From the NCBI RefSeq assembly GCF_002240355.1, contig NZ_CP016353.1:3212501-3276500 (forward strand): DNA of 64,000 bases, written 5' to 3'. The notes under the pieces are model-generated. The model saw only the letters and a program-made list of their open reading frames with translations, was not told where the DNA came from and did no database searches. This DNA comes from Prauserella marina (GTDB lineage Bacteria; Actinomycetota; Actinomycetes; Mycobacteriales; Pseudonocardiaceae). Shown piece after piece: positions 33,378 through 51,983 of this stretch. Every line of letters begins with the position of its first letter. Position 1 is the stretch's first letter. The position numbers were made by a program, and so were the translations under genes.

Positions 33378-34565
33378 CTAACCCGCTTCGCTGAGCAGGC
33401 GCCTGCCGATGATCATGCGCTGGATGTCGGCCGTGCCCTCGCCGATGAGCAACATGGGCGCCTCGCGGTAGAGCCGTTCGATCTCGTATTCCTTGGAGTA
33501 GCCGTAGCCGCCGTGAATGCGGAAGGCGTCCTCGACGACCTCGGCGCAGTACTCGCTCGCGAGGTACTTGGCCATCCCGGCTTCGAGGTCGTTGCGTTCG
33601 CCCGAGTCCTTGCGGCGCGCTGCCATGACCATCATCTGGTGCGCGGCGGTGACCTTGGTGGCCATCTCGGCGAGCCGGAACAGCACGGCCTGGTGTTCGG
33701 CGATCTTCTTGCCGAACGTCTCGCGCTGGAGGGCGTATTCGCGGCCGAGTTCGAACGCCCGCGCCGCCACCCCGCAGGCACGGGCGGCGACGTTGACGCG
33801 GCCGACTTCGACCCCGTCCATCATCTGGTGGAAGCCGTGTCCCGGCGTGCCACCGAGGAGCTGGTCGTCGTCGATGCGGTGGCCGTCGAGGATCAGCTCG
33901 GTCGTGTCGACGCCCTTGTAGCCCATCTTGTCGATCTTGCCGGGAACGGTGACGCCCTGCGCGGTCTCGCCGAAGCCGGGTTCCTTCTCGATGAGAAACG
34001 TGGACATGTTCCGGTACACCGAGTCCGCGCCGGTGTCGGTCTTGACGAGTGTCGCGACGAGGTTGGCCGATCCGCCGTTGGTCAGCCACATCTTCTGTCC
34101 GTTGATGGTCCAGCCATCGCCGGTGCGTACGGCTTTCGTCGTGATGGCCGAGACGTCGGAGCCGCAGCCCGGTTCGCTCATGGAGAAGGCGCCGCGCAAC
34201 TCGCCGGTGGCCATGCGGGGGAGATAGCGGCGTTTCTGTTCTTCGGTGCCGTACCTCAGCAACAGGTGCACGACGATGAAATGGGTGTTGATGATGCCGC
34301 TGACCGACATCCAGCCCCTGGAAAGTTCCTCGACGGCGAGTGCGTAGGTGAGCAGTGATTCCCCGAGGCCGCCGTATTCCTCGGGGACGACGAGGCCGAA
34401 CATGCCCATGTTCTTGAGTCCTTCGACGATGTCGGCGGGGTACTCGTCGGCGTGTTCGAGTGCCGTGGCGGTGGGGATGATCTGCTCGTCGACGAATTCC
34501 TTGACGAGCGCGAGCAGGTCTCGCTGTGTTTCGGTGAGTCCTTCGGTGTGTCGTAGCCTGCTCAT
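33378..34565 (-). CDS. acyl-CoA dehydrogenase
   Basis: A 395-residue FAD enzyme. The middle domain has FSMSEPGCGSDV and TINGQKMWLTNGGSANL; the C-terminal domain has FGKKIAEHQAVLFRLAEMAT, FRIHGGYGYSKEYEIERLYR and the catalytic Glu in LIGEGTADIQRMIIGR. This is a standard short/medium-chain acyl-CoA dehydrogenase that makes a 2,3-double bond in an acyl-CoA. The ATG at 34565 is the first start with family homology downstream; an upstream ATG at 34649 adds unrelated residues. It follows the ABC importer operon by 93 bases downstream on the same strand. Confidence 0.92.
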   Translation of the reverse strand: MSRLRHTEGLTETQRDLLALVKEFVDEQIIPTATALEHADEYPADIVEGLKNMGMFGLVVPEEYGGLGESLLTYALAVEELSRGWMSVSGIINTHFIVVHLLLRYGTEEQKRRYLPRMATGELRGAFSMSEPGCGSDVSAITTKAVRTGDGWTINGQKMWLTNGGSANLVATLVKTDTGADSVYRNMSTFLIEKEPGFGETAQGVTVPGKIDKMGYKGVDTTELILDGHRIDDDQLLGGTPGHGFHQMMDGVEVGRVNVAARACGVAARAFELGREYALQRETFGKKIAEHQAVLFRLAEMATKVTAAHQMMVMAARRKDSGERNDLEAGMAKYLASEYCAEVVEDAFRIHGGYGYSKEYEIERLYREAPMLLIGEGTADIQRMIIGRRLLSEAG

Positions 34566-34658
34566 GGCGTCGCGGTCTCCGTTACGAGTGTCGGGGTTGC
34601 CGTACGTGGGCTGGGTGCGGCGCGGATCGGGAGCTGACCCGCGCCGCACCGGCTGGGG

Positions 34659-35792
34659 TCATCCGGTGAAGTGGAACGCCTGGTTCCAGGTGCGGATGGT
34701 GCTTTCGGAGAAGCGGTCAGCGTCCTCTGGGGTGAAGAGGTGGAACTGGTCGGAGTCGGCGGCGGGGAGCTGGTATTCGCCGGTCGGCTGGGGTTCGAGG
34801 CCGGGCCGGGCCGGTACGAATCCTTGCGCGGCGGCGAATTTCTGCCCTGCCTTGGACATGGTCCAGTTGATGAAGAGCTGCGCGGCGGGGCTCTGCTCAC
34901 CCGCCGGTGTCAGGCCCATGAGGTTGAAGGAGCCGGACATGCCGTCCTCGGGGACGACGAGCTTGATGGGCGCACCGGCGACCTCGGCGCCGTAAGTGCT
35001 GTTGAAGCCCAGTGTCGCGACGGCGATCTCGCCCCTGGCGAGTGCTTCGAGCTGCACCGAGGTGGTGTCGAAGATGCGTGGTTGCTGCTTGCCGAGATCC
35101 TTGAGGTAGTCCTCGCCGAAGGTGTCGAGCTGGAAGTGGGCGAGTGCGGTCACCGTGCCGCCCGCTCCGGCGTGGACGACGCCGAGTTTGCCTTTCCATT
35201 TGGGGTCGGTGAGGTCGGCCCACTTGGCAGGCACGTCGTCGCCGGCGATGGCCGAGGAGTTGTAGCCGAAGGTGTAGGCGGAGTAGTAGGCGGTGAGGTA
35301 TTGGCCTTCGTTGAACACGACGTTGTCGGCTTCGGCCAGTTCGTCGTAGGAGGGCGGTTTGTAGGGGGTGAAGACGCCGCGTTCGGCGAATTGTTCGGCC
35401 ACGAGCGGGTCGGTGACGCGGACGACGCCCGCTCCGAGCTGGTTGGCTCCGTGTTCACTGAGGACCCGCTCGGAGAGTTTGTTGGTCGGCATCCTGGTGA
35501 GTTCGATGTCGATGCCGGTTTCGGCTTTGAATCTGGCGGTGGTGAGGTCTTCGCTTTCCTTGCCGGATCCGGAGTAGAGGACGACGGTGTCGTTTTTGGC
35601 GGCTTCGAACAGTTCCTTGTCGGCGATTTGCTCGCCGTCGATGACGAGTCCGTTGCTGGTGTCCACTTCGGGCATGGGCAGCACTTCGTTTTGGGCCGCG
35701 TCGCTGGCCGCGGAGCCGCCGGAGCCACCACCGCAGGCGGCGACGGTCAGTAAGACCGTTGTGGCGAGCGGGATCAGCAGTTTCTTCCGCAT
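34659..35792 (-). CDS. ABC importer substrate-binding lipoprotein (family 1, Fe3+/organic anion type)
   Basis: A 377-residue exported binding protein. The signal peptide RKKLLIPLATTVLLTVAAC ends in a lipobox with Cys20. After an N-terminal segment the fold begins TVVLYSGSGKESEDLTTARF, as in FbpA/FutA-like and 2-aminoethylphosphonate-type proteins; a YYSAYTFGYN segment could supply tyrosine ligands, but the exact FbpA iron site is not evident. Given the CoA-catabolism genes around it, an organic acid or anion is as likely a ligand as iron. The ATG at 35792 has AAGGAG nine bases upstream. It is the third gene of its importer operon. Confidence 0.85.
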   Translation of the reverse strand: MRKKLLIPLATTVLLTVAACGGGSGGSAASDAAQNEVLPMPEVDTSNGLVIDGEQIADKELFEAAKNDTVVLYSGSGKESEDLTTARFKAETGIDIELTRMPTNKLSERVLSEHGANQLGAGVVRVTDPLVAEQFAERGVFTPYKPPSYDELAEADNVVFNEGQYLTAYYSAYTFGYNSSAIAGDDVPAKWADLTDPKWKGKLGVVHAGAGGTVTALAHFQLDTFGEDYLKDLGKQQPRIFDTTSVQLEALARGEIAVATLGFNSTYGAEVAGAPIKLVVPEDGMSGSFNLMGLTPAGEQSPAAQLFINWTMSKAGQKFAAAQGFVPARPGLEPQPTGEYQLPAADSDQFHLFTPEDADRFSESTIRTWNQAFHFTG

Positions 35793-35839
35793 AGGATGCA
35801 ACTCCTTTGTCGTTTCCTCTGTCGTTGTTCGAAGTGCTG

Positions 35840-37600
35840 CTAGGGGGTGAGTCCGCCGCCGGATCCGATGCGGCGGGGCAGGTAGGAGAGTACGAACATG
35901 ATGGCGCAGTAGATGACGCTCATCGCTGCCGCTTGTTGTAGCGCTCCGCCGTTTTCGAACTGGTCGAAGATGGTGATGGAGAGGATGTGTGTGTCCGATG
36001 TGTACAGGAAGAGCGGGACGGTGAGTTCGCGCATGCTGAGCATGAGCAGCATGAGGAAGGTCGAGGCGAGGCCGACTCGCATGAGCGGGACGGTGATGGA
36101 CATGATGGCGCGGGATCGGCGTGCTCCGTGGAGGACGGCGTTGTCTTCGAGGTCGCGTTCGGTGGACTGGATGGAGGAGGCGATGCCGCGTAGCCCCTGT
36201 GGCATTTGGACCGCGATGAATGCGATGACCATGACCCAGAGGGTTCCGTAGAGCGGGAACGGCATGACCAGCCAGGTCCACAGTAGACCCATGCCGAGGA
36301 CGATGGCGGGGATGGCCAGCGGCACCATGGAGATGCCTTCGAGCAGTCCTCTACCGCGTGCCTTGGTGCGGTAGACGGTGTAGCCGACGAGGAAGGCGAG
36401 TACGGTGCCTGCCGCGGCGGAGGTGAGGGCGACGATGACGCTGTTGCCGGCGGAGTCGAGGAACAGGCCGGAGCTGAGCACGTTGCCGAAGATGCCGAAG
36501 TCGATGGCGCCGGGTTGGGAGAGGTCGCTGAAGGACTGCATGTAGGGCGAGGTGCGGACGGCGGTGAGGATGAGTGCTGCGAGCGGCAGGATGATGGAGA
36601 GCAGTAGGTAGACGAGCGCGATGGCGAACAGTGGCCATTTCCATTTGCCGAGCGTGATGCGGCGGGCTTTGAGTCCTTTGCCGGAGACGGTGGTGTAGGA
36701 GCGGCGGGCCAGTATTCGGCGTTGTCCGAGTGTCACGAGGAGTACGACGATGACGAGGACGACGGCCATGACGGCTGCTTCGTTGCCTCGGGAAGGTGAG
36801 GCGTTCATGAGCCGGTAGATGAAGGTTGGCAGTGTATCGATCTGGCCTGGGGTGGCGAGTACCTGTGATACGGGGAAGTTTTCGAAGATGTGGGTGAACA
36901 CGAGTAGTGCGGAGCCGAGGATGGCGGGCATGGCGAGTGGGAAGGTGACGTTGCGGAGCATGCGCCAGGTGGATCCGCCGTGTACGCCGGCCGCGTCTTC
37001 GAGGTCGGGGTTCATGAGTGACATCGAGCTGTGCATGAGCAGGAACGCGTAGGGCGCGTAGAACATGCCCATGACGAGTACGACGCCGCCGAGGCTGTAG
37101 ATGTTGACGGTGAAGTCGATGCCGAGGTCTTGGAAGCCGATGTTGAGCAGGCCGGCGACGGGGCTGCCGAGGATGGACCAGGCGAGTGCGCCGACGTAGG
37201 AGGGCAGGAACAGCGGCATGAGGCCGATGAAGAAGACGAAGCCACGCATGGGGATGTTGGTGCGGGCGGTGACGAAGGCGAGGAAGCCGCCGATGAGTAG
37301 TGCCAGCAGGGTTCCCGACACGCCGATGATGAGAGAGTTGAGGGTTGCCTTGAGTACGCCGGGTTCGGTGAACACGGCGATGTGGTCGAGGGTGAGGTCG
37401 AAGTTGATGTTGCCTGGTCGTGGGATGTCGACGCTGAAGGCGGCGAGCAGGACGAATCCGGCCGGTACGAGGATGAGGAACGCGATGAGGACGAGCAGGG
37501 GGAGGCTGCTCCAGCCGCGTGGTTTGCGGATGCGCCTGCGTGGGCTTGGTGGTGCGGGCGCGGGTGTGGTGGCGGGGTCTCGGGTGTCGGTGATGGTCAT
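35840..37600 (-). CDS. ABC importer permease, duplicated (FbpB-like)
   Basis: A 586-residue permease made of two homologous halves with about six helices each. Each half carries the EAA-type ATPase-contact loop, DLEDAAGVHGGSTWRMLRNV in the first and DLEDNAVLHGARRSRAIMSI in the second. Fused permeases of this kind serve ferric-iron, thiamine and phosphonate importers. Its ATG overlaps the stop of the ATPase gene by four bases. Confidence 0.92.
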   Translation of the reverse strand: MTITDTRDPATTPAPAPPSPRRRIRKPRGWSSLPLLVLIAFLILVPAGFVLLAAFSVDIPRPGNINFDLTLDHIAVFTEPGVLKATLNSLIIGVSGTLLALLIGGFLAFVTARTNIPMRGFVFFIGLMPLFLPSYVGALAWSILGSPVAGLLNIGFQDLGIDFTVNIYSLGGVVLVMGMFYAPYAFLLMHSSMSLMNPDLEDAAGVHGGSTWRMLRNVTFPLAMPAILGSALLVFTHIFENFPVSQVLATPGQIDTLPTFIYRLMNASPSRGNEAAVMAVVLVIVVLLVTLGQRRILARRSYTTVSGKGLKARRITLGKWKWPLFAIALVYLLLSIILPLAALILTAVRTSPYMQSFSDLSQPGAIDFGIFGNVLSSGLFLDSAGNSVIVALTSAAAGTVLAFLVGYTVYRTKARGRGLLEGISMVPLAIPAIVLGMGLLWTWLVMPFPLYGTLWVMVIAFIAVQMPQGLRGIASSIQSTERDLEDNAVLHGARRSRAIMSITVPLMRVGLASTFLMLLMLSMRELTVPLFLYTSDTHILSITIFDQFENGGALQQAAAMSVIYCAIMFVLSYLPRRIGSGGGLTP

Positions 37601-38733
37601 GCCGCGACCTCGTCCTCCGTGGGGACGCTGCCGCTCTCGCTGACCTCGTCGGGGATGACGAGCACGGCGGCGGGGTCGATGTCGACGTGTGCGCGGGCGC
37701 CTCGGGGGAGGGTTCCGGCACCGGCGGGGCAGATGGCGTCGAGTTGGGGTCCGTTGTCGATGGCGATTTGGTAGCGCACGGAGGAGCCTTGGTAGACGCG
37801 GACCTCGATCGTGCCGGTGAGAGTGTTGGTGCCGGCGGGGGCGCCGGGTAGGTCGTTCTCGGCGCGGACGCGGATGTCTTCGGGGCGGATGGCGATGCTG
37901 GCGGCGCCGGGCGGGCTGGTCGCGGAGGCGTCGAGGGTCATGGGGTGGTCGGCGAGTTCGATTGTGTTGCCCGTGGCGCCGGCGGTGCCTGCGATGGTGA
38001 AGACGTTGGTGACGCCCATGAAGCGGGCGATGGAGGCGCTGGCTGGGGCGGCGTAGACGGCTTCGGGGGTGCCGAGCTGGGTGATGTGGCCTGCTTGCAT
38101 GATGGCGATGCGGTCGGCCAGCGCGAGTGCCTCTTGCTGGTCGTGGGTGACGTAGAGGCTGGTGAGTCCGCGTTCTTGCTGGATGTGCCTGAGTTCGACG
38201 CGGAGGTCGTCGCGCAGTCGTGCGTCCAGGTTGGACAGTGGTTCGTCGAGTAGCAGCACGCTGGGTTCCATGGCCATGCTGCGGGCGAGTGCGACGCGTT
38301 GCATCTGGCCGCCGCTGAGTTGGCTGGCTCCGCGTTCGGCGAGGTGGCCGAGGCCGACGAGGCCGAGTACTTCCATGGCCTTGTCGCGGGCGGGGCCGCG
38401 TTTGATCTTTTTCATGCGCAGCGGGAAGGTGACGTTTTCGAGCACGGTTTTGTGTGGCCAGACGGCGTAGGACTGGAAGACCATGCCGACGTTGCGTTTG
38501 AACGAGGGTACGGAGCGGCCGGTGTCGTGGTCGAAGACCGTGGTGTCGCCGATGGTGATGCTGCCGCCCGTGGGTTCCTCAAGTCCGGCGATGCAGCGCA
38601 TGGTGCTTGTTTTGCCGCAGCCGGATTGGCCGAGCAGGACGATCGATTCGCCGTCCTTGATGGTGAGGTCGAGCCCTTCGACAGCGGCGACACCGCCGTA
38701 GGCGAGGCTGAGGTTGGTGATGGTCACCTGCAT
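37597..38733 (-). CDS. ABC importer ATPase (FbpC/PotA-like)
   Basis: A 378-residue ATPase. Walker A is GQSGCGKTS, the Q loop VGMVFQSYAVWPH, the signature LSGGQMQRVALARS, Walker B VLLLDEPLSNLD and the switch His in YVTHDQQEALALAD. The C-terminal third is a TOBE domain (IAIRPEDIRV...GSSVRYQIAID). The ATG at 38733 follows AAGGAG by six bases. It is the first gene of the importer and lies 24 bases after the acyl-CoA synthetase. Confidence 0.93.
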   Translation of the reverse strand: MQVTITNLSLAYGGVAAVEGLDLTIKDGESIVLLGQSGCGKTSTMRCIAGLEEPTGGSITIGDTTVFDHDTGRSVPSFKRNVGMVFQSYAVWPHKTVLENVTFPLRMKKIKRGPARDKAMEVLGLVGLGHLAERGASQLSGGQMQRVALARSMAMEPSVLLLDEPLSNLDARLRDDLRVELRHIQQERGLTSLYVTHDQQEALALADRIAIMQAGHITQLGTPEAVYAAPASASIARFMGVTNVFTIAGTAGATGNTIELADHPMTLDASATSPPGAASIAIRPEDIRVRAENDLPGAPAGTNTLTGTIEVRVYQGSSVRYQIAIDNGPQLDAICPAGAGTLPRGARAHVDIDPAAVLVIPDEVSESGSVPTEDEVAA

Positions 38734-38757
38734 GACGGTCTCCTTCCTGGGTTTTCT

Positions 38758-40845
38758 CTAGCGGCCGGTGACCCGCACGAGGGCGTCGAGTGCGACGGCG
38801 CCGTTGCCGGGGGTGCCAACGGTGAGGGGGTTGATTTCGGCTTCGATGACGTCGGGGCGGTCGGTGGCGAGGTTGGATATGGCGACGATGGTGTCGGCGA
38901 GTGCGTCGATGTCGCCTGAGTCGGCGCCTCGGAAGCCGGAGAGGGTACCGAGGCCGCGGACATCGGCGATCATGTCGCGGGCGGTGTCGGTGTCGACGGG
39001 GGCGAGGCGCACGGTGGAGTCGGAGTACAGCTCGGCGTAGATGCCGCCTGCTGCCAGTAGCACGATGGGGCCCGCGGCTGGGCTGACGCGGTAGCCGACG
39101 AGTGCTTCGGCGATGCCGGGTTTGGCCATGGGCTGGACGAGTACTTCGCCGAGGGTGATGGTGGGGTCGTAGGCGGCGACGTTGGTGGTGATGCGGGTGA
39201 TGGCGGTGCGGAGGCTTGCGGCGTCGGGAATGTCGAGTGCGACGGCGCCTGCTTCGGTTTTGTGGGGCAGGGCTTCGGAGAGGGCTTTGACGGCGACGGG
39301 GTAGTCGAAGGGGAGGTCGGGTTCGGTTGTGCCGGTGGTGTCGAGTACGACGGAGTCGACGGTGGTGATTCCCTGGTCGGCGAGTAGCCGGGAGGATTCG
39401 GCTTCGTCGAGGATTCGGCTGGTCGTGGGTGCGGGGGCGCCGTGGAGGGTGTCGGCGCGGACGGTGGGCGGGGTGCGGTCGAGTGCTCCGGCGATGGCGT
39501 CGGCGCAGGCTTCGGGGGTGCGGAAGGCGGCGACTCCGGCGTTGTCGAGCAGGCGGAGGGTGTGCAGGGCGTCGGGGAGTGCGAAGGCGGCGAGGGGGAC
39601 TTGTCCTTCGGCGCGTTCGGCGATGGCTTTGACGGCGAGTTCTGGGTTGGAGCGGGCCGAGGAGCCGATGACGAAGCACACGAGGTCGAATTCGCCGCTG
39701 TTCTGCATGATTTCGATGGCGGAGCGGACGAGTTCGTGTTTGGCGCCGGCGAGGGTGAGGTCGGCGATGAGGTTGGGGGCGACGGGGACGCCTGCTTCGG
39801 CGAAGCGGTCGAGGACGGTGCTGCTGGGGGCGACGACTTTGACGTCGCGGGTGGCGAGCTGGTCGACCATGATGGCGGCGCCGCCGCCGGTGGTGGTGAT
39901 GATGCCGACGCGGGCGGGTTCTTTGCGGGGGGTCGCGGGGAGTTTCCGCAGGAGCGCTGGTGCTTCGATGAGTGCTTCGAGTTGGTCGACGCGGGCGAAT
40001 CCGCAGGCGCGGAAGAAGGCGTCGGATTCGCTGTCGGCTCCGGCGAGTGCGCCTGTGTGTGATACGGACAGTGCGGCTGCTTCTTCGGAGCGGCCGAGTT
40101 TGTAGACGACGACGGGTTTGCCTGCCTGGTGGGCTTTGTGGGCGAAGTCGGCGAGTTCGTCGGTGTGTTGCAGTGATTCCATGAACAGCGCGTATGCGCT
40201 GATGCCTTGGTCGTCGACGGTGGCGGCGCACAGTGTGCCGATGGAGATGTCGGCTTCGCCGCCGACGGAGACGAGTCCGGCGAAGCCGATGCCGCGGGCT
40301 TTGCCTCTGCTGACGAGGGCGCCGATGATGCTGCCGGATTGGGAGGCGACGAACAGGTCGCCTTGGAGGAGTTCTTCGTCGAAGGCGGCGTTGGCGGTGA
40401 GCAGCAGGTTGTTGCGGGGGTTGACGACGCCGAGGCTGCTGGGTCCGATGAGGCGGACGCCGCCTTCTCGCGCGGTGTCGCGGAGGCGTTGCTGGCGTTG
40501 TAGCCCTTCGGGGCCTTCTTCGCCGAAGCCGCTGGCGAGGATGGTGGCGACGGGGACGCCGAGCCGGGCGCATTCGCGGACGGTGTCGATGGCGGGTTCG
40601 GCGTTGGTGAGGATGTAGACGTGGTCGGGTACTTCGGGCAGGGCGGTGAGGTTGGGGTGGCAGCGTTCGCCGAGTACTTCGTCGCGGGCGGGGTTGACCA
40701 GGTGGACGGTGCCCGCGTAGCCGGCTTTGCGGAGGAAGCGTTGTGGCCGGGAGGTGGTTTTCGCGGGGTCGCCGGACGCGCCGACGATGGCGACGCTGCG
40801 TGGGTGCAGGAGGCTGTCGGCGAAGGTGTGGTTGGTGTCAACCAT
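38758..40845 (-). CDS. acyl-CoA synthetase, ADP-forming (acetate-CoA ligase family)
   Basis: A 695-residue enzyme that makes an acyl-CoA from a carboxylic acid, ATP and CoA through a phosphohistidine. An N-terminal CoA-binding Rossmann domain (SVAIVGASGDPAKTTSRPQR) is followed by succinyl-CoA-ligase-like domains with the phosphorylated His in SVSHTGALAGADSE, and a C-terminal ATP-grasp domain (DYPVAVKALSEALPHKTEAG; VLVQPMAKPGIAEALVG). The fused layout is that of ACD and Pat-like acetyl-CoA synthetases, but no acetyltransferase domain is present. It precedes the importer genes on the same strand and probably activates the imported acid. Confidence 0.9.
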   Translation of the reverse strand: MVDTNHTFADSLLHPRSVAIVGASGDPAKTTSRPQRFLRKAGYAGTVHLVNPARDEVLGERCHPNLTALPEVPDHVYILTNAEPAIDTVRECARLGVPVATILASGFGEEGPEGLQRQQRLRDTAREGGVRLIGPSSLGVVNPRNNLLLTANAAFDEELLQGDLFVASQSGSIIGALVSRGKARGIGFAGLVSVGGEADISIGTLCAATVDDQGISAYALFMESLQHTDELADFAHKAHQAGKPVVVYKLGRSEEAAALSVSHTGALAGADSESDAFFRACGFARVDQLEALIEAPALLRKLPATPRKEPARVGIITTTGGGAAIMVDQLATRDVKVVAPSSTVLDRFAEAGVPVAPNLIADLTLAGAKHELVRSAIEIMQNSGEFDLVCFVIGSSARSNPELAVKAIAERAEGQVPLAAFALPDALHTLRLLDNAGVAAFRTPEACADAIAGALDRTPPTVRADTLHGAPAPTTSRILDEAESSRLLADQGITTVDSVVLDTTGTTEPDLPFDYPVAVKALSEALPHKTEAGAVALDIPDAASLRTAITRITTNVAAYDPTITLGEVLVQPMAKPGIAEALVGYRVSPAAGPIVLLAAGGIYAELYSDSTVRLAPVDTDTARDMIADVRGLGTLSGFRGADSGDIDALADTIVAISNLATDRPDVIEAEINPLTVGTPGNGAVALDALVRVTGR

Positions 40846-44698: not shown

Positions 44699-46042
44699 TC
44701 AGCGGCCGAGCGCGGCGACCGAGGTGGCGACCTCGTCGGCGGTGAATGCGGCGAACCGGGTGGTGAGGGTGTCGACCGCCGCGAGGACCCCGGCGGGGTC
44801 GTGGCCGCCGACGGTGGCGCAGGCCGCTGTTTTCGCGGCGAGTGCGTCGGCGCCGAGCGGGTGCAGGGGCGATCCGGTCATGGGGGCGGTCGCCGAGGAC
44901 ACGGCGCCGCCGGTGGTGTGCACGTGCACCGTGGCCGGTGCCATCGTGGCGGTCGTCCGCTGGTCCTGGTGCACGGTGACCAGTGCGGCTGCCCTTTCGA
45001 TGCGGTCGTCGAGCAGGTCGGGGCCCGCGATGGTGGTGAGGTCGACCTTTCCGGTGACCAGTTGGGCGGCGACGAGCCACGGGATGGAGAACTGGGCGTC
45101 GATGACGGGACGGCCCCTGCGTTCGAAGGGGCGGGACACGAGTGCGTAGGCGGCGCCTTCGGGTACGTGCACGGTGATCGAGGAGATGTCGGCGGGGGAC
45201 AGGTCGGCGGTGGCTTGCGCGGCGGCGGTGATGGCGGCGTGGGTGTAGCGGCAGGCGGGGTAGGGCTTGAGGGAAAGCCGTGCGCCTTCCCATCCCGGTT
45301 CGCGCAGGATCGCCGCCGCGGGCCCCGGCGCGGCGGCGAGCAGACCGTATTCGCCGTCCGCCCAGCCTGAGGGGCCTTCGACCCCGGCGCGCGCGAGAAA
45401 CGCGGCGGTGAGTCCACTCTGGACGGCAAGTCCGGGCTGGAGGCGTTTGTTGACGGCACTGTCGGCGACGACCTGCCTGCTGTGCGGGGAACCGGCTGCG
45501 GGAAGCGCGAGTGCCATGGCGTTGCCGATGCCCTCGGCGTCGAGGCCCATGGTGCGGGCGGCGGCCGCGGCGGCGGCGACGGAGCCGAGCCCTGAGGTGC
45601 GCACCATGCCTTTTTGCGGGCCGATCGCCAGCGACAACCTGGCCAGTACCTGGATTCCGGTGACGAGGCCGTCGAGGATGTCGCTTCCGCCGCGCCGGGT
45701 GTGGATTCCGGCGGCGAGCGCGGAGGGCAGGGCTATGGCCATGGTGTGGACGACGGCGTCGTCGTGGGTGTCGTCGAAGTCCCAGGCGTGGATGAGCGCC
45801 GAGCAGGCGAGTGCCGCTTGTGTGGGGGGCAGGCTCAGTCCGGTCCACGGGACGGGAACTGAGCCGGAACCCTGGTCGCGCAACGCGTCGAGGCTCGGCT
45901 GGATCCCGGTGGCGGTGGCGCCTGCCGAGGCGATGCCGAGTGCGTCGCGCAGCAGCAGGGTGCCGGTTTCCCGTTCGGAGGGGGAGAGTCCTGCCCAGCT
46001 CATGCCTGCCAGTTCGGCAGGCCACTTCGTCGTGGTTTCCAT
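44699..46042 (-). CDS. MmgE/PrpD family protein, copy 2
   Basis: A 447-residue relative of copy 1, with LIHAWDFDDTHDDAVVHTMA in the place of the first active-site loop, VNKRLQPGLAVQSGL in the second, and LKPYPACRYTHAAITAA in the third. The Asp-Asp-Thr-His version of the first loop is the more classical one. It is the first gene of the minus-strand catabolic operon. The ATG at 46042 follows GGGAG. Divergent promoters with the hydroxyacyl-CoA dehydrogenase lie in the 98 bases upstream. Confidence 0.9.
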   Translation of the reverse strand: METTTKWPAELAGMSWAGLSPSERETGTLLLRDALGIASAGATATGIQPSLDALRDQGSGSVPVPWTGLSLPPTQAALACSALIHAWDFDDTHDDAVVHTMAIALPSALAAGIHTRRGGSDILDGLVTGIQVLARLSLAIGPQKGMVRTSGLGSVAAAAAAARTMGLDAEGIGNAMALALPAAGSPHSRQVVADSAVNKRLQPGLAVQSGLTAAFLARAGVEGPSGWADGEYGLLAAAPGPAAAILREPGWEGARLSLKPYPACRYTHAAITAAAQATADLSPADISSITVHVPEGAAYALVSRPFERRGRPVIDAQFSIPWLVAAQLVTGKVDLTTIAGPDLLDDRIERAAALVTVHQDQRTTATMAPATVHVHTTGGAVSSATAPMTGSPLHPLGADALAAKTAACATVGGHDPAGVLAAVDTLTTRFAAFTADEVATSVAALGR

Positions 46043-46098: not shown

Positions 46099-46120
46099 CT
46101 CTATAGAGTGTTGTCTACAA
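46099..46120. promoter_or_regulatory. adjacent palindromes in the divergent promoter of the catabolic region
   Basis: ACTCTATAGAGT (46099-46110 region) is a perfect 12-base palindrome and TTGTCTACAA (46111-46120) fits the TNGTNNACNA pattern of FadR-subfamily GntR operators. They lie between the two divergent catabolic transcripts; a GntR gene is at 47902. Confidence 0.55.
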
Positions 46121-46140: not shown

Positions 46141-47088
46141 ATGAGTGCGTCAGCGAGGACAGCACCCACCCCGGCAGCCCAGGAAGCCTTGCCCTGCTCT
46201 GGCGACAGGGTGGCGGTGATCGGCGCCGGCATCATGGGACGAGGCATCGCGCGAGCCTTCGCCTCCGCGGGCGCGGCCGTGACACTGGTGGACGCCGACG
46301 ACACCGGCGCCCGCGCCGCGATCGACGTACTGCGGACCGACCTCACCCGCGGTGCCCGCCGCGATCCCGCGCTCGACGTTGAAGGGACACTCGGGCGCAT
46401 CCGGCCCGAAGGGACACTGGAAGCGGTCGGCGAGGCGAGCGCCGTCATCGAATGCGTACCGGAAGACCTCGACCTCAAACGCGGCATCTTCCAGCGGCTC
46501 GCCGAACTCGCGCCGCGCGACGCCCTGCTGAGCACCAACACCTCCGCCCTGCCCATCACCTCGATCGCCTCCGCCACCGCCGAACCGCACCGCGTGGTGG
46601 GACTGCACTTCTTCAACCCGGTGCACAGGATGAAACTCGTCGAGGTGATCGCCGGTCTGGCCACCGGCGAGGCGACCGTGACCGAGGCCCGCGCACTGTG
46701 CGAACGCGCGGGCAAGACCACGGTGCGCGTCACCGACCGCGCGGGATTCGTGACCAGCAGGGTCAACGTCCTGATCGGCAACGAGGCGTTCCACCTGCTC
46801 ACCGAAGGCGTCGCCGACGCCGAGGAAATCGACATCGCGCTCACCAATGGCCTGAACCACCCGATGGGCCCCTTCGAGCTGATCGACCTCGTCGGGCTCG
46901 ACACCCGGCTCTCGGTGCTGCGGTCACTGCACGAATCACTCGGCGACCGGTTCCGCCCCGACCCCACACTCGTCAGCCTCGTCCAGGCGGGCAGGCTCGG
47001 CCGCAAGACCGGACACGGCGTCTACCGCTACGACGAGGACGGCGCCCGCATCCCCGGCAGCGGCCTCAAGCAGGGAGGCAGGCCATGA
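46141..47088 (+). CDS. 3-hydroxyacyl-CoA dehydrogenase
   Basis: A 315-residue NAD enzyme oxidising (S)-3-hydroxyacyl-CoA to 3-ketoacyl-CoA. The N-terminal Rossmann fold has VIGAGIMGRGIARAFASAG and the catalytic His is in GLHFFNPVHRMKLVEVI; the C-terminal helical domain has HPMGPFELIDLVGLDT. ATG 46141 has AGGAG eight bases upstream; the TTG just before it (46138) is less likely. The stop overlaps the ATG of the enoyl-CoA hydratase. Confidence 0.93.
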   Translation: MSASARTAPTPAAQEALPCSGDRVAVIGAGIMGRGIARAFASAGAAVTLVDADDTGARAAIDVLRTDLTRGARRDPALDVEGTLGRIRPEGTLEAVGEASAVIECVPEDLDLKRGIFQRLAELAPRDALLSTNTSALPITSIASATAEPHRVVGLHFFNPVHRMKLVEVIAGLATGEATVTEARALCERAGKTTVRVTDRAGFVTSRVNVLIGNEAFHLLTEGVADAEEIDIALTNGLNHPMGPFELIDLVGLDTRLSVLRSLHESLGDRFRPDPTLVSLVQAGRLGRKTGHGVYRYDEDGARIPGSGLKQGGRP

Positions 47089-47825
47089 TCGTCCGGCTCG
47101 ACCACGACAATGGCGTCAACACCCTCACCCTCGACCGGCCCGCCAAACGCAACGCGCTCAACGTCGAGATGTCCGAGGCGATCTCCGGCGCCCTCGATCA
47201 AGCCCGCGAGCAACCCGGCATCCTCGTCGTCCGCAGCAGCACACCAGGCACGTTCGTCGCCGGAGCCGACATCGCCGACCTCGCTCAGCGCACCAGAGCC
47301 GAAGCGCTGAGCAGGCTCAACCAGCAACTGTTCCTCAAACTGGAGGAATTCCCGTGGCCGAGCGTGGCCGTCGTCGACGGGCCCGCGCTCGGCGGCGGCT
47401 GCGAACTGGCGCTGGCCTGCGACTTTCGCGTCGGCTCCTCCCGCTCGCTGTGGGGGCTGCCGGAAGTACGGCTCGGCATCATCCCCTCCGCGGGCGGGTT
47501 GTGGCGGCTGCCGAGGCTCATCGGCTGGGCCGCCGCGACCGAACTGATCTACACCGGCCGCAGGGTCGGCGCCGACGAAGCGCGGCAACTGGGGCTGCTG
47601 CACCGGTTGTGTGAGCCGGCCGAGCTGGAGGGCACAATGGACGGTCTGCTCGGCGAGCTGCGGAAGGCGTCACTGACCGCTGTCCGGTACGCGAAGGAGG
47701 CCATGAAGGCGCCGCACGACCGCAACCGGGTCGGCGACGCGGCACTGCAGGCACTGTGCTTCGAGTCCGAGGATGCCCGGCAACGCCTCGGTGCCTTCCT
47801 CGCCCGCTCGAAGGGCACGTCCTGA
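47085..47825 (+). CDS. enoyl-CoA hydratase/isomerase
   Basis: A 246-residue crotonase-fold protein. The oxyanion-hole segments are FVAGADIADL and GPALGGGCELALACDF; a catalytic Glu is in GLPEVRLGIIPSAGG, while the position of the first crotonase Glu is less clear, so isomerase activity is possible. ATG 47085 follows GGGAGG by six bases and overlaps the dehydrogenase stop. It should add water to a 2,3-enoyl-CoA in the same pathway. Confidence 0.9.
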   Translation: MIVRLDHDNGVNTLTLDRPAKRNALNVEMSEAISGALDQAREQPGILVVRSSTPGTFVAGADIADLAQRTRAEALSRLNQQLFLKLEEFPWPSVAVVDGPALGGGCELALACDFRVGSSRSLWGLPEVRLGIIPSAGGLWRLPRLIGWAAATELIYTGRRVGADEARQLGLLHRLCEPAELEGTMDGLLGELRKASLTAVRYAKEAMKAPHDRNRVGDAALQALCFESEDARQRLGAFLARSKGTS

Positions 47826-47901: not shown

Positions 47902-48594
47902 ATGGCGTCGGAGACCGAGCCGTTGCGGCCACCGCAAAGCAGAACGGCCTACGTGGTCGAGCGGCTCAAGGAGGACCTGGCCAACGGGCTGATCCAGCCG
48001 GGCGAGACGATCAAGCAGACCGTGCTGGCCAAACGATACGGGGTCAGCCCGACTCCGGTTCGCGAAGCACTGCGCATGCTGGAGTCCGACGGTGCCATCA
48101 CCTACCTGCCGCACAGGGGCGCCTCGGTGAGGGAGATGGCTCCCGACGCCGCGGTCGACCTGTACCGGATGCGGGCCAGCGCCGAAGGTACCGCGACCGA
48201 AATGGCGGTCGAGCGGATGACGCCGTCGGGGCTGGCGCTCATCGAGGAACAGCACGTCGCGTTGAACAAGGCACGAGAAAAGGGAGCCAGTTCGGCGAAA
48301 CTGTCACAACTGAACAGGTCACTGCACTTCACCATCTACGCGCAGAGTTCGCCGCTGGTGGTCGAGTACCTCGAACTGTTGTGGACGCGCTTCACCCCGT
48401 CGACGACCATCTGGACCGGCGAGCATTCCGGCGACCTCAACGACGACCACGAGGCGATCATGGACGCGATCAGGAAAGGTGACGCCAAGCGCGCGGGTGC
48501 CCTGATGTCGGAGCACATCCTGCGGGCGTCTCGGATCAGGGCGCAGGATCCCTCGGTCCGCGCCGAGGGAACCCACACCGACATGGAGACCTGA
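47902..48594 (+). CDS. GntR family regulator, FCD (FadR) subfamily
   Basis: A 230-residue regulator. The winged helix has YVVERLKEDLANGLIQPGE and RYGVSPTPVREALRMLESD; the helical FCD domain carries metal-ligand His residues in LNRSLHFTIY and LMSEHILRASR, so it probably senses a carboxylic acid. AGAGGA lies six bases before the ATG. Its place inside the catabolic region makes it the likely regulator of both transcripts. Confidence 0.92.
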   Translation: MASETEPLRPPQSRTAYVVERLKEDLANGLIQPGETIKQTVLAKRYGVSPTPVREALRMLESDGAITYLPHRGASVREMAPDAAVDLYRMRASAEGTATEMAVERMTPSGLALIEEQHVALNKAREKGASSAKLSQLNRSLHFTIYAQSSPLVVEYLELLWTRFTPSTTIWTGEHSGDLNDDHEAIMDAIRKGDAKRAGALMSEHILRASRIRAQDPSVRAEGTHTDMET

Positions 48595-48607
48595 ACCGGG
48601 CCGCTGG

Positions 48608-49573
48608 TTAGTGGGCGTTTCCGCTGATGATCCGGCGTCCTTTCTGGGTGCCGGTCAGCGTCCACCCTTCGTCGTCCCTGCTGGCGGTGAATGTCGTCGC
48701 TCTGTCCACATAGGCCGGAGTGAGCAGACTGAAGTCGTAGTGCGTCAAGGGTTTCGGCCCGGTAGCTCGGCGCGCGACGTCGAGCAGCAACAGTGCGCTG
48801 AGCGGGCCATGCACGACGAGGTCGGCGTGTCCCTCGACGCCGGTCGCGTACCGGTGGTCGTAGTGGATGCGGTGCGGGTTGTAGGTCAGCGCGCTGAACC
48901 GGAACAGCGTGACCGGGTCAGGGGTGAGTGTCGTGGTGATCTCCGGCTCCGGTCGTGGTGGCGGGGTCCGGTCCGCTCGTGGGCCGGACTGGGCGGGGGC
49001 CGCGCCGTCGTAGCGCAGTACGACCTTGCGGCGTTCGGTCAGCGCGAGACCGTCCTGCGATCCGGAGATCTCGGAGTTTTCGGCGGTGGTGTAGGCGTGC
49101 AGTTCGGTGAGCACCAGCAGCCAGCCGGTGCGTCCTGGCCGGATGCGGCAGTCTTCCAGCAGGCTGAGGCGGGTGACCTCGTCGCCGACGCGCAGCGGAG
49201 TGGTCAGGTCCATGGTCGCGCCGCCGAAGACCCTGCGCCGTGGCCGGTTGGTCGGCATCAGCGCGTGATCGGCGGCGTGACCGTCCTCGGCGAGCGTGCC
49301 GCGGGCGATCGGGTCGCGGAAGTAGACCTCCTGCCAGCCGAGGGGGAGCGGGTCGCCTTCCCGCTCGGCTGGTGGTTCGACGCCGAGGACACCGGCCAGT
49401 GCCTGTGCTCGCCACGGGTCGATGACCGAGGTGGTGCCGAACACCGGCGGCGCGAAGTCGCCGACCATGCCGACCAGTTCGGCCGGTGCCTCGTCCGGCA
49501 CGTCGAGCCGGGCCGGGGTCCATGGTTCGGGCAGGGACTGGACAACCACGTTGTTGCTGCTACATTCCTCCAT
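48608..49573 (-). CDS. MaoC-type hydratase (double hotdog, mesaconyl-C4-CoA hydratase/HTD2-like)
   Basis: A 321-residue acyl-thioester hydratase with two hotdog domains. The C-terminal half carries TYNPHRIHYDHRYA, the Asp/His hydratase site, and VVHGPLSALLLLDVARR. The N-terminal half (LPLGWQEVYFRDP...MDLTTPLRVGDEVTRLS) is a degenerate copy. Known relatives hydrate mesaconyl-C4-CoA or itaconyl-CoA, or serve as fungal-type HTD2 dehydratases. The ATG at 49573 is preceded by TAGACT seven bases upstream and no ribosome site, so it is probably leaderless. It is divergent from the thiolase and convergent with the GntR gene. Confidence 0.82.
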   Translation of the reverse strand: MEECSSNNVVVQSLPEPWTPARLDVPDEAPAELVGMVGDFAPPVFGTTSVIDPWRAQALAGVLGVEPPAEREGDPLPLGWQEVYFRDPIARGTLAEDGHAADHALMPTNRPRRRVFGGATMDLTTPLRVGDEVTRLSLLEDCRIRPGRTGWLLVLTELHAYTTAENSEISGSQDGLALTERRKVVLRYDGAAPAQSGPRADRTPPPRPEPEITTTLTPDPVTLFRFSALTYNPHRIHYDHRYATGVEGHADLVVHGPLSALLLLDVARRATGPKPLTHYDFSLLTPAYVDRATTFTASRDDEGWTLTGTQKGRRIISGNAH

Positions 49574-49580
49574 ATTCAAT

Positions 49581-49592
49581 AGTCTATAGAGG
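49581..49592. promoter_or_regulatory. divergent promoter with TCTATAGA palindrome
   Basis: On the minus strand TAGACT (49586-49581) is a -10 box for the MaoC-type gene. The overlapping TCTATAGA palindrome recalls the ACTCTATAGAGT in the other divergent promoter near 46100. Only 26 bases separate the two start codons, so one bound regulator could affect both genes. Confidence 0.5.
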
Positions 49593-49599
49593 TGGGTCC

Positions 49600-50817
49600 A
49601 TGCTGGGACAAGACATCGTCGTGTGTTCGCCATTGCGTACCCCGGTCGGCCGGTTCGGTGGGGGCCTGGCTTCCACGCCGGTCGTCGATCTCGCCTCCGC
49701 CGTGCTCAGCGCCGTCATGGACCGCGCCGCGCTCGACCCGGCCGTGGTCGACGACGTCATTCTCGGCCACGCCTATCCCACGTCGGAGGCGCCCGCGCTG
49801 GGCAGGGTGGCCGCGCTCGACGCGGGCCTGCCCTCGACCGTGGGCGGCATGCAGGTGGACCGCCGGTGCGGTTCGGGACTGCAAGCCGTCCTGCAAGCGG
49901 CGGCGCAGGTCGCCACCGGCGTGAGCTCGGTGGTGCTCGCCGGTGGCGCGGAGAACATGAGCCAGGCGCCCTTCTACAGCACCACGATGCGATGGGGCGC
50001 CGCCTCTCCCGCCGTGACCCTGCACGACTCGCTCGCAAGGGGAAGAGTCACCGCGGGAGGCCGCACTCAGCCGGTTCCCGGCGGGATGATCGAGACGGCC
50101 GAGAACCTGCGCAGGGAATACGGCATCAGCAGGAGCAGACAGGACGAGTACGCCCTGCTGTCCCAGCGGCGCGCGGCCACCGCGATCGCCGAAGGCCGCT
50201 TCGCCGACGAGATCGTTCCGGTCGCCACCACCGTGCGGCGCAAGGAAGTACTCGTCGACGCCGACGAGCATCCCCGCCCCGGCACGACGCTGGAGCAGCT
50301 CGCGGCGCTGCGCCCGGTGATGGGCAAGAACGACCCCGAGGCCACGGTTACCGCGGGCAACGCGAGCGGGCAGAACGACGGCGCCGCCGCGTGTGTGGTC
50401 ACCACGCCGGAGCGGGCCGCCGAGCTGGGACTGGAACCCATGGCGCGGATCGTCGAATGGGCCGTCGCCGGAGTGCCCGCGGCGACCATGGGCATCGGGC
50501 CCGTCGGCGCCACGGCCAAGGTGCTCGGCAAAGCCGGGCTCAGCATGGCCGATCTCGGGCTCATCGAACTGAACGAGGCGTTCGCGGCCCAGGTACTGGC
50601 CTGCTACGACGAATGGGGTCTGACCGAGGACGACATCGCGGCGAGAGTCAACGTCAACGGCTCCGGGATCTCGCTCGGCCATCCCGTCGGCGCGACCGGT
50701 GTGCGGATCCTGTGCACCCTGGTCAGGGAAATGCGCAGGCGCGACGTTCGCTACGGGCTCGAAACGATGTGCATCGGAGGGGGTCAAGGGCTGGCCGCCT
50801 TGTTCGAACTGGCATGA
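49600..50817 (+). CDS. thiolase (acetyl-CoA acyltransferase)
   Basis: A 405-residue thiolase that cleaves a 3-ketoacyl-CoA with CoA. Cys90 in VDRRCGSGLQA is the acyl-accepting residue; LNEAFAAQ, the His in SLGHPVGATG and the second Cys in TMCIGGGQG complete the active site. GAGGTGG precedes the ATG at 49600. The stop overlaps the ATG of the MFS gene. It is the terminal step of the pathway encoded around it. Confidence 0.93.
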   Translation: MLGQDIVVCSPLRTPVGRFGGGLASTPVVDLASAVLSAVMDRAALDPAVVDDVILGHAYPTSEAPALGRVAALDAGLPSTVGGMQVDRRCGSGLQAVLQAAAQVATGVSSVVLAGGAENMSQAPFYSTTMRWGAASPAVTLHDSLARGRVTAGGRTQPVPGGMIETAENLRREYGISRSRQDEYALLSQRRAATAIAEGRFADEIVPVATTVRRKEVLVDADEHPRPGTTLEQLAALRPVMGKNDPEATVTAGNASGQNDGAAACVVTTPERAAELGLEPMARIVEWAVAGVPAATMGIGPVGATAKVLGKAGLSMADLGLIELNEAFAAQVLACYDEWGLTEDDIAARVNVNGSGISLGHPVGATGVRILCTLVREMRRRDVRYGLETMCIGGGQGLAALFELA

Positions 50818-51983
50818 GATCGTGGTACCCGCACCTCTGCGTCGTCACGGCACTGTCCCAAGCGGCCTACAACGCCGCGAGGATGCTGGTCTCCTACCGG
50901 GCGCTCGCGCTCGGCGGGGACGGCATCGCCCTCGGTGTGATCACCGCACTGTTCGCGTTGCTCCCGCTCGTCATCGCGATGCACGTGGGAAGGGCTGTCG
51001 ACAATGGACGGCCGGCCGGTGTTCTTCGTTCCGGCATCGTGCTGACGATACTGGCCCTCCTGGTCATCACCGCCAGCGACAACCTGCTCGTGCTCGGTCT
51101 CGGCAACGTACTGCTGGGCTTCGGGCAGATCCTCGTCACCGTGTCCTCGCAGGGATTCGTCCCGCTACTGTCCACACCGGACCAGCTTGACCGCAGGTTC
51201 GCGGGCTGGACGCTGGCCGTGTCGGTCGGGCAGACGGCGGGACTGCCCATCGCGGGTGTGGTCTCCTCGGCCAGCAGCGGCGATGCCGGTGTCGTCACCA
51301 CACCGGCGCTGCTCGCGCTCGCCGGGCTCGTCGTGCTCGCGGTGCCCTCGGCCATGCTGCTTCCGGTGCTGCGGCGGCCACCCTCGGCCCCCGCCGAAGG
51401 CAAGAGCCAGTCGGTGGTGACCATGCTCGGCATCCCCGGCATGCGGCCCGCCGTCTTCAGTAGCCTCGTCGTGCTCACGTCGATGGACGTGCTGTCGGCC
51501 TTCCTGCCCGTGCTCGGTGAGGAATTCGGGTTCAGCGTGCTGCTGGTGACCGCCCTGCTGACCCTGCGCACCGGATCGTCGATCGTGTCGAGAGCGTTTC
51601 TGCCCGCGCTACTGCGGATGGTGCCGCGACGATGGCTGCTGCTGTCGGCCACCTTGTGCTCGGCGCTGCCGATGGCGGCCATCCCGCTCGCGGGCAACCC
51701 CGTGTTCATGGGGGTGCTGCTCGTCGTCGTCGGGTTCTTCTGGGGCATCGGCCAGCCGCTGACCATGACCTGGGTGGTGAACCTGGTGTCGGTGCGCAGC
51801 AGAGCGTCGGCATTGTCCTTGCGGCTGACCGGAAACCGGCTCGGTCAGGTACTCGTGCCACTGGGCGCGGGCGCCATCGCGGGGATCACCGGAGTCGGCT
51901 CGGTGTTCGTGGTCACCGGAGCACTGCTGTGGACCTCCAGCGGGTTCACCTGGCGAGCGGTCCGCCGCCGGCGAGCGAACTGA
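50814..51983 (+). CDS. MFS transporter
   Basis: A 389-residue membrane protein with about 12 helices and the major-facilitator loop AMHVGRAVDNGRPAGVLRSG after the second helix in the position of motif A. It is translationally coupled to the thiolase (ATGA), so it probably moves a substrate or product of the same pathway, but the family branch is not specific. Confidence 0.82.
   Translation: MRSWYPHLCVVTALSQAAYNAARMLVSYRALALGGDGIALGVITALFALLPLVIAMHVGRAVDNGRPAGVLRSGIVLTILALLVITASDNLLVLGLGNVLLGFGQILVTVSSQGFVPLLSTPDQLDRRFAGWTLAVSVGQTAGLPIAGVVSSASSGDAGVVTTPALLALAGLVVLAVPSAMLLPVLRRPPSAPAEGKSQSVVTMLGIPGMRPAVFSSLVVLTSMDVLSAFLPVLGEEFGFSVLLVTALLTLRTGSSIVSRAFLPALLRMVPRRWLLLSATLCSALPMAAIPLAGNPVFMGVLLVVVGFFWGIGQPLTMTWVVNLVSVRSRASALSLRLTGNRLGQVLVPLGAGAIAGITGVGSVFVVTGALLWTSSGFTWRAVRRRRAN

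Follow-up and report, generated by a model that had tools for sequence, protein, structure and literature searches.

The closest described setting for the genes considered here is the degradation of itaconate and methylsuccinate. In the pseudomonad itaconate cluster, as the available part of PMC12290011 describes it, the MmgE/PrpD protein is a methylsuccinate isomerase with His102 and Tyr148 as proposed bases; the same part of the source places this isomerase almost only in Pseudomonadota (96.2%) and has the known MmgE/PrpD substrates share a 1,4-dicarboxylate. The locus that we analysed lies in a soil actinobacterium, Prauserella marina, within a stretch of 64,000 nucleotides (hereafter the window; contig NZ_CP016353.1, positions 3,212,501 to 3,276,500), and holds two MmgE/PrpD genes, MmgE1 and MmgE2, among genes for uptake, coenzyme A (CoA) ester formation and beta-oxidation. 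The original prediction of an undescribed pathway for a branched or polycarboxylic acid is supported: the genes are co-conserved, and no description of such a cluster was found in the open-access literature that our search covered (subscription journals lay outside it), while the accessible portion of the main text of a dicarboxylate transposon study (PMC12543098) makes no mention of MmgE. We consider it somewhat probable that the genes form a regulon under GntR/FCD control by which a methyl-branched di- or tricarboxylic acid is broken down to acetyl-CoA and pyruvate. The sequence itself shows which genes are present, that they are conserved together and that their promoters share a palindrome. 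The substrate is most likely a methyl-branched di- or tricarboxylate, on evidence that is weak; the set of about fifteen genes, which is co-regulated and patchily inherited, most likely takes up a branched organic acid and degrades it by a route whose tail resembles known itaconate/methylsuccinate breakdown.

All genes named in that prediction lie uninterrupted at 33.4-52.0 kb and are confirmed by family matches, from Pfam where no other basis is given here. Along the minus strand, from 46042 down to 33378, follow MmgE1 (44699..46042), the acyl-CoA dehydrogenase ACAD1 with an isovaleryl-type glutamate and a proposed role in a first dehydrogenation (43495..44658), MmgE2 (42122..43498; like MmgE1 with both family domains, by Pfam and alignment), the class III CoA transferase CoAT, assigned through TIGR04253 to the mesaconyl-CoA C1-C4 transferase (Mct) branch (40899..42125), the ADP-forming acyl-CoA synthetase ACD, the proposed activating enzyme (38758..40845), an ATP-binding cassette (ABC) importer composed of an ATPase with a TOBE domain (37597..38733), a permease with two BPD domains (35840..37600) and a solute-binding lipoprotein (SBP_bac_6; 34659..35792), and finally ACAD2, an acyl-CoA dehydrogenase with the usual glutamate of the medium-chain (MCAD) type, for which a second dehydrogenation like that of methylsuccinyl-CoA dehydrogenase (MCD) is proposed (33378..34565). 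Divergent from these, the plus strand carries a 3-hydroxyacyl-CoA dehydrogenase (HCDH, 46141..47088), an enoyl-CoA hydratase (ECH, 47085..47825) and an FCD-type GntR regulator (47902..48594), and beyond it a MaoC protein resembling itaconyl/mesaconyl-C4-CoA hydratases by its similarity to structure 8khg and to Ich (minus strand, 48608..49573; weak in Pfam, clear against 8khg) is divergent from a thiolase (plus strand, 49600..50817; also NF004853, 642 bits, cut-off 551) and a major facilitator superfamily (MFS) carrier (plus strand, 50814..51983). Starts were revised for CoAT (42125, GTG), MmgE2 (43498), ACD (40845), the binding protein (35792), ACAD2 (34565) and MaoC (49573). The translational overlaps noticed earlier are real: stop and start share four bases at five junctions (ACAD1/MmgE2, MmgE2/CoAT, ATPase/permease, HCDH/ECH and thiolase/MFS).

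A scan for MmgE1 of 84,980 genomes (one per species) gave 30 loci, the best ten of which (45-74% identity) were compared gene by gene; these ten, two further loci (G148 and G552) and the window make up the 13 loci counted below, from Prauserella, Amycolatopsis, Pseudonocardia, Nocardia, Knoellia, Intrasporangium and further genomes. The 20 weaker loci (L014-L033, 26-35% identity) were left out of the member count because they hold no ACAD1 and no comparable ACD or importer. The comparison of gene order across actinobacterial genomes that had been proposed as a check bears out co-conservation, the absence of which had been named as a refuting outcome: MmgE1, ACAD1 and MmgE2 adjoin in 12 of the 13 loci, and ACD follows this core in the same 12 (54-79% identity in the relatives); in the window, as in Knoellia and A. 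acididurans, CoAT comes between core and ACD. The exception is a Propionibacteriales metagenome bin (G009) with MmgE1-MmgE2 and no ACAD1 match, whose figures are weak, its ACD and CoAT matches being broken. A GntR orthologue is near the core in every locus (47-83% identity in 12/12 relatives), and MFS orthologues (40-79%) are near it in 10 of the 12 relatives. The importer is present in 10/13 loci, with permease identities of 60-91% and binding-protein identities of 47-86% in the relatives, the 47% belonging to a 57-residue fragment; in G552 the binding protein is seen as a fragment at the locus edge, the stretches read of both Amycolatopsis hold no importer, and G009 shows only a 36% ATPase. 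MmgE1 is rare and patchy in its distribution, occurring in 6/297 Pseudonocardiaceae (E<=1e-60) and in 2/394 Actinomycetes (E<=1e-70, the window's genome included), and since the MmgE1 and MmgE2 trees agree in most groups, the unit seems to travel together. MmgE1 also has 23 matches (E<=0.001) in G009 (L012/L053), compared with 15 in the genome that ranks second among the ten.

The remaining genes are arranged more variably. The full set stands in one cluster in the window (without the lyase discussed below) and in Knoellia. In place of the HCDH/ECH pair, Nocardia, both Pseudonocardia, Intrasporangium, G148 and G552 carry a different enoyl-CoA hydratase, a dehydrogenase resembling FabG and a MaoC protein some 155 residues long. 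P. cavernicola and P. flavalba carry a separate seven-gene operon elsewhere, GntR-ECH2-CoAT-SDR-thiolase-MaoC2-ACAD2 (SDR, short-chain dehydrogenase/reductase), and ACAD2 orthologues lie near CoAT or thiolase in these operons and in Nocardia.

The genes are further tied together by an operator-like palindrome, TCTATAGA. It occurs twice in the window against 0.04 expected, at the divergent MmgE1/HCDH promoter (46100..46107) and at the divergent MaoC/thiolase promoter (49583..49590). The cluster regions, 580,643 bases in all, contain 17 exact copies, 16 of them intergenic: the window's two and 14 within 205 bases of a called start, including those of the ECH2 operons of Nocardia, Pseudonocardia parietis and G148 and one (G022) that precedes only a thioesterase gene. 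The remaining site (G930) lies 18 bases inside a called thioesterase start and 97 bases before ACD. At the MmgE1 promoter the palindrome is exact in 7/13 loci and within one mismatch in four; G005 has none within one mismatch there, and G009 no exact site. A strict pattern, ATNNTCTATAGANT, finds seven sites in six whole genomes, all before genes of this system, and none in its reversed control, with the reservation that it was written after most sites had been seen and that only one, at the P. cavernicola MaoC gene, was unforeseen; G148 has no site of this stricter form. An extended operator pattern allowing two mismatches gave 24 matches in 12 genomes against 61 for its reversed control. The unforeseen site, the only further strict-pattern site of its genome, lies on another contig than the core and precedes the start of a MaoC orthologue (64% identical to the window's) by nine bases, and the window palindrome is likewise nine bases from the MaoC and thiolase starts, the MaoC start at 49573 having been picked for this gap to match P. 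cavernicola; the hydratase is thus tied to the core even where it is unlinked. We regard the case for a dedicated catabolic unit with its own operator as strong.

Three proteins would define the lower part of the route. CoAT matches TIGR04253 (mesaconyl-CoA C1-C4 transferase) at 345.7 bits, below the cut-off of 725, with the next family at 101.8, and its nearest solved structures are 7xkg and 8apq, the Mct of Chloroflexus/Roseiflexus. Aligned to these (chain offset of 21 counted by hand), it keeps Asp165, Arg47 and Tyr136, which together with a gate at position 43 are taken from the parts of PMC9813914 and PMC9196870 that were available. A motif search of 14 relatives found the Asp motif in 13 (not in L085) and the Tyr motif in all 14. 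CoAT had been predicted to be a second activation enzyme; from its sequence it is probably intramolecular, of the Mct branch, with one marker residue missing. The MaoC protein has a weak Pfam match (FAS1_DH_region, E 5e-5) and no NCBIfam match, aligns with itaconyl-CoA hydratase 8khg at E 3e-32 (8khg residues 28-237 of 275) and is 35% identical to Pseudomonas aeruginosa Ich over 261 columns, and is predicted to be itaconyl-CoA-hydratase-like by homology over most of its length.

The original prediction had further stated that a citramalyl-CoA lyase is lacking and had set the system apart from the itaconate route on that ground. The first statement holds for the 18 kb, as no Ccl/RipC homologue is found among the genes at 33-52 kb of the window, and fails beyond them, with a homologue unlinked in the same genome and others in the clusters of 4/12 relatives; the argument drawn from it is not supported. 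HpcH/HpaI lyase homologues are in the cluster in 4/13 loci, overlapping ACAD2 in Knoellia, adjoining CoAT in Intrasporangium, adjoining thiolase in G009 and beside CoAT in G552. The best NCBIfam match of the first three is RipC/Ccl, under its cut-off; the G552 protein shares 55% identity with that of Intrasporangium, and P. aeruginosa Ccl shares 46% with the Knoellia lyase. Of five HpcH/HpaI places in the window's genome, one (C1:4973476-4974279) encodes an unlinked homologue, whose identity is 49-52% with the Knoellia lyase and 46% with P. aeruginosa Ccl. With CoAT, MaoC and a lyase in cis or in trans, the genes would provide the tail known from itaconate/methylsuccinate degradation, and we have moderate confidence in a predicted passage through mesaconyl- and citramalyl-CoA.

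Genome content agrees with this picture. A Mct-branch protein (E<=1e-40) is encoded in 12/12 other MmgE1 genomes, six of which have it on a different contig or 37 kb or more distant, compared with 23/117 Pseudonocardiaceae taken as MmgE1-less (E<=1e-80; 26/120 minus the three MmgE1 genomes G000, G024 and G094, the lack of MmgE1 resting on the family-wide scan) and 0/5 genomes whose MmgE2 locus lacks MmgE1. The Fisher values (1e-6, 1e-4 and 2e-4) ignore kinship and mix the two E-value limits, and are indications only. Three of the MmgE2-only clusters (G930, G424 and G022) combine GntR and MmgE2 with a fused HCDH/ECH, an ACAD1 at 52% identity and the same importer (51-70% identical to the window's), and G930 has ACD and thiolase as well; MmgE1, CoAT, ACAD2 and an Ich-like MaoC are not seen in the stretches read of them. 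Their MmgE2 copies fall inside the MmgE2 group of the tree, and they probably take up similar acids. MmgE1 and the tail, in short, go together. Another MmgE2-type cluster (L090 and L091, in G896 and G914) has an 880-residue ACD-like protein, and in G896 a DUF6282 protein and a D-2-hydroxyacid dehydrogenase, both with homologues in G914.

A thiolase-CoAT pair is also found in a different context in Pseudonocardia parietis (L078, C1:252000-270000), where it belongs to a gene cluster for catechol ortho-cleavage. The cluster includes muconate cycloisomerase, pcaD, pcaI and pcaJ, all of which score above the cut-off of a fitting model. There, 4-methyl-3-oxoadipyl-CoA would presumably be thiolysed to methylsuccinyl-C1-CoA, for which a C1-to-C4 transferase would then be needed. 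The pair speaks for placing the thiolase ahead of CoAT in the course proposed below. This cluster is a candidate route for methyl-substituted catechols.

The two MmgE/PrpD proteins are the most distinctive members of the set. Numbered by the P. aeruginosa protein (L069), our alignment reference, MmgE2 has Trp at the Tyr148 position in 13/13 and keeps all six of His88, Glu91, His102, His152, Lys202 and Lys266; MmgE1 has a gap at Tyr148 in 13/13, keeps His88, His102, Lys202 and Lys266, has Asp for Glu91, and has the substrate-binding His152 replaced by Val or Ile in 13/13. The four MmgE proteins tested from proteobacterial plasmids keep the tyrosine. MmgE1 forms a separate clade (support 100/100), and its predicted model has a normal fold (predicted local distance difference test score, pLDDT, 86.6), with template modelling (TM) scores of 0.77-0.84 to cis-aconitate decarboxylase and IDS epimerase (7br9/6r6u/6r6t) that express fold agreement only. 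Because Tyr148 is missing, neither protein is an isomerase of the known kind, and methylsuccinate isomerase is ruled out in that sense for both. The methylcitrate pathway was likewise rejected: the two proteins score 42.2 and 20.2 bits with the NCBIfam model of PrpD (2-methylcitrate dehydratase), far under its cut-off of 950, and the window's genome has a separate MmgE/PrpD gene elsewhere. The reactions of MmgE1 and MmgE2 are the novel part of the pathway, whose first enzymes are uncharacterised. A possible, if doubtful, proposal is that they are new enzymes that work on a tricarboxylic acid one after the other or jointly as a hetero-oligomer, such that MmgE2 would isomerise or dehydrate it and MmgE1 would decarboxylate the product in the manner of cis-aconitate decarboxylase. 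The methyl(ene) branch made in this way would leave the cell in need of Mct, a hydratase of the itaconyl type and citramalyl-CoA lyase. The proposal would account for the finding of MmgE1 only with Mct and would explain why no tail is seen in the stretches read of the MmgE2-only clusters that share the importer; if true, it would amount to a new dedicated catabolic pathway for a natural tricarboxylate.

The isovaleryl-type base expected in one acyl-CoA dehydrogenase is indeed present in ACAD1 and conserved in 15/15 aligned ACAD1-type rows. The best solved relative of ACAD1 is 5af7, which we take to be AcdDPN7, and its best NCBIfam model is 3-sulfinopropanoyl-CoA desulfinase (283 bits, cut-off 600). 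Where 5af7 has Gln, which in place of the dehydrogenase base is presumably diagnostic of the desulfinase (Acd), all 15 rows have Glu; a desulfinase function of ACAD1 was rejected on this retained glutamate and on the score far under the cut-off. ACAD2 has the usual glutamate in 4/4 rows, and its nearest solved relatives are FadE3 (4iv6) and then MCD (6es9). The nearest solved relatives of ACD are 4-hydroxybutyrate-CoA ligase (8wzu) and dimethylsulfoniopropionate (DMSP) lyase (7cm9), and among family models the importer resembles PhnS2/T2/U2 (2-aminoethylphosphonate type), far under cut-off; this similarity is too broad for a guess at the substrate.

ACD is paired with ACAD1 in actinobacteria and on proteobacterial plasmids. 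Seven (L059-L065) of the 25 listed plasmid matches to ACAD1 were opened, and an acetate-CoA-ligase-family gene is near ACAD1 in all seven; ACAD1 and ACD stand together in these seven and in L067, and the stretches of L059, L060, L064 and L067 also contain MmgE/PrpD genes. The pair looks like an older module that would activate and oxidise dicarboxylates. As an observation in its own right, an ADP-forming acyl-CoA ligase and a nearby dehydrogenase of the ACAD1 type form an uncharacterised pair on these proteobacterial plasmids and one Rhodococcus plasmid (L059-L065, L067), and some of the stretches carry tripartite tricarboxylate transporters; on the Acinetobacter plasmid (L060:6001-7073) an MmgE/PrpD gene is annotated as two fragments near ACAD1, ACD, a thiolase and a DcaP porin.

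Put together, these genes suggest the following course. The ABC importer would bring in the acid, and MmgE1 and MmgE2 would alter it in free form by proton-transfer chemistry at the carbon beside a carboxylate, whether by isomerisation, dehydration or decarboxylation. ACD would then form the CoA thioester, and ACAD1, ECH, HCDH and the thiolase could carry out one round of beta-oxidation, releasing acetyl-CoA and leaving methylsuccinyl-CoA with the thioester beside the methyl branch (C1). ACAD2, or ACAD1 again, may yield mesaconyl-C1-CoA, the Mct-like CoAT would shift the CoA from C1 to C4, and the MaoC protein would hydrate mesaconyl-C4-CoA to citramalyl-CoA, which a Ccl/RipC-like lyase (in cis in four relatives, in trans here) would split into acetyl-CoA and pyruvate. 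The GntR protein presumably binds the TCTATAGA palindrome, and the acid itself or a CoA ester of it would release the protein.

Several observations weigh against this course. The MmgE steps and the beta-oxidation round do not yet fit one named acid, because known MmgE/PrpD substrates carry a 1,4-dicarboxylate and the 3-methyladipate skeleton that the beta-oxidation round implies does not: a C7 skeleton of that kind fits the tail and the thiolase and not the known MmgE chemistry, while a tricarboxylate decarboxylated by MmgE1 would reconcile the two. CoAT scores below the cut-off of TIGR04253, and in place of the Leu/Ile43 gate, described as a mark of intramolecular transferases, there is Pro in the window and Pro, Ala, Ser or a shorter loop in relatives; both facts weaken the assignment of a strictly intramolecular Mct. 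ACAD2 is without the residues of the MCD methyl pocket and carboxylate contact (R252->T, A285->F, F287->M and R376->K; specificity residues from the available part of PMC5798300, positions counted by hand), and although it keeps MCD Arg421 and the catalytic Glu535, these four changes weaken its candidacy as an MCD-type enzyme. The lyase homologue of the window's own genome is unlinked, and the 200 bases examined at that place hold no copy of the palindrome, even with one mismatch allowed. The lower-gene operon of P. cavernicola and P. flavalba has a different GntR (29%) and a promoter without the palindrome within one mismatch, and the same seven-gene operon, as far as the contig reaches, in a Prauserella without MmgE1 (G063) indicates that the tail also serves other inputs. 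The genome-wide MmgE1 search, finally, covered two of the five MmgE2-only genomes (G022 and G424).

Other explanations have to be set beside a methyl-branched acid. The locus might encode the methylsuccinate/itaconate (C5) pathway proper, with ACD activating methylsuccinate, ACAD1 as methylsuccinyl-CoA dehydrogenase, the MmgE proteins as methylsuccinate isomerases and CoAT, MaoC and lyase finishing, while HCDH, ECH and thiolase would have some other task. The P. aeruginosa cluster (L069) does have the same kinds of protein, its Mcd shares the isovaleryl-type glutamate with ACAD1, and the likeness of MaoC to Ich and of the Knoellia lyase to Ccl points the same way, but we judge this pathway unlikely: every one of the 13 MmgE1 and 13 MmgE2 proteins is without the isomerase tyrosine, MmgE1, MmgE2, ACAD1 and ACAD2 are only 27-33% identical to Msi and Mcd, and the thiolase and 3-hydroxyacyl dehydrogenase that accompany CoAT in many loci, in cis or in trans, would be idle.

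An unbranched polycarboxylate or adipate-like acid would cast CoAT as an intermolecular activating transferase and MaoC as a plain enoyl-CoA hydratase, with acetyl-CoA and succinyl-CoA as end products. The ACAD1-ACD pair stands beside a fused HCDH/ECH on plasmids (L059-L062), one such stretch having a 3-oxoadipyl-CoA thiolase and a DcaP porin, and recurs in the MmgE2-only clusters, and the want of Leu43 in CoAT agrees with such a role; the presence of Mct-branch CoAT in 12/12 other MmgE1 genomes and 0/5 MmgE2-only ones, together with the lyase in cis in 4/13 loci, makes us think it quite improbable. Far less credible is a sulfur- or nitrogen-containing acid, suggested by the proximity of ACAD1 to 5af7 and the desulfinase model, of the importer to PhnS2/T2/U2 and of ACD to DMSP lyase, as all these models are far under cut-off and ACAD1 has the dehydrogenase glutamate in 15/15 rows at the glutamine of 5af7.

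The surroundings of the cluster hold further features. Respiratory nitrate reductase genes (narG, narH, delta, gamma) and a NarK-family transporter (53513-61541, minus strand) adjoin it. On its other side, also on the minus strand and within 29246-31944, a near-full glucarate dehydratase (768.6 bits, cut-off 828.7) is accompanied upstream by a second copy with model matches in different frames (N-terminal part 30478-31944, C-terminal part 30597-31301), probably a frameshifted paralogue. A SAM-IV riboswitch (26048-26161, minus strand; Rfam 110.3 bits, gathering 38) covers the 5' end of an open frame at 24651-26153 (SufS-like/class V aminotransferase), and a 783-residue protein (17358-19709, minus strand) has cytochrome P450 matches in front and PaaE/GbcB-type reductase matches at its end.

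Most MmgE/PrpD proteins are without a known reaction, and the methyl-branched acid regulon proposed here places two of them in a fixed context with a likely regulator, operator and end product, whereby their chemistry becomes directly testable. Actinobacteria would also be shown to possess a tail of the itaconate/methylsuccinate type, connected to a round of beta-oxidation, and the upkeep of a fifteen-gene regulon would suggest that soil actinomycetes encounter such a branched acid frequently. Among known systems, the ich-mcd-msi-ict-ccl cluster of pseudomonads and Cupriavidus, as far as the available parts of PMC12290011 and PMC9875883 describe it, is alike in its MmgE/PrpD protein, acyl-CoA dehydrogenase, CaiB-type transferase, MaoC hydratase and citramalyl-CoA lyase (in the relatives' clusters here) and in its proposed end, from citramalyl-CoA to acetyl-CoA and pyruvate. 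Unlike it, the actinobacterial locus has two MmgE/PrpD proteins without the isomerase tyrosine, an ADP-forming ligase instead of Ict (CoAT being of the Mct branch and 26% identical to Ict), added HCDH, ECH, thiolase, second dehydrogenase and ABC importer, and a GntR regulator. The second cycle of the 3-hydroxypropionate bicycle (Mct, mesaconyl-C4-CoA hydratase and citramalyl-CoA lyase) has the transferases closest to CoAT, with Asp165, Arg47 and Tyr136 in common, whereas here the setting is catabolic and CoAT is without the Leu43 gate; MaoC was compared with Ich rather than with the Chloroflexus hydratase.

Beta-oxidation of dicarboxylates of the Acinetobacter type is encoded by dca genes. With this type and the plasmid loci L059-L065 our locus shares ACAD1 and ACD adjoining or one gene apart; the plasmid loci have a fused HCDH/ECH in 4/7 cases and a dicarboxylate porin or tripartite tricarboxylate transporters in some, but their stretches gave no match to a Mct-branch CoAT, an itaconyl-CoA-type hydratase or a lyase (an annotated CoA ester lyase is cut at the L063 edge), and the four proteobacterial MmgE proteins differ from MmgE1 and MmgE2 in keeping the tyrosine. 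Catechol ortho-cleavage, in turn, has a methylmuconolactone/4-methyl-3-oxoadipate branch. That branch, as represented by L078, is alike in that a thiolase adjoins a Mct-branch CoAT after pcaIJ, suggesting a methylsuccinyl-CoA product; it is entered from an aromatic ring, whereas the locus described here would begin with an imported acid and MmgE/PrpD steps.

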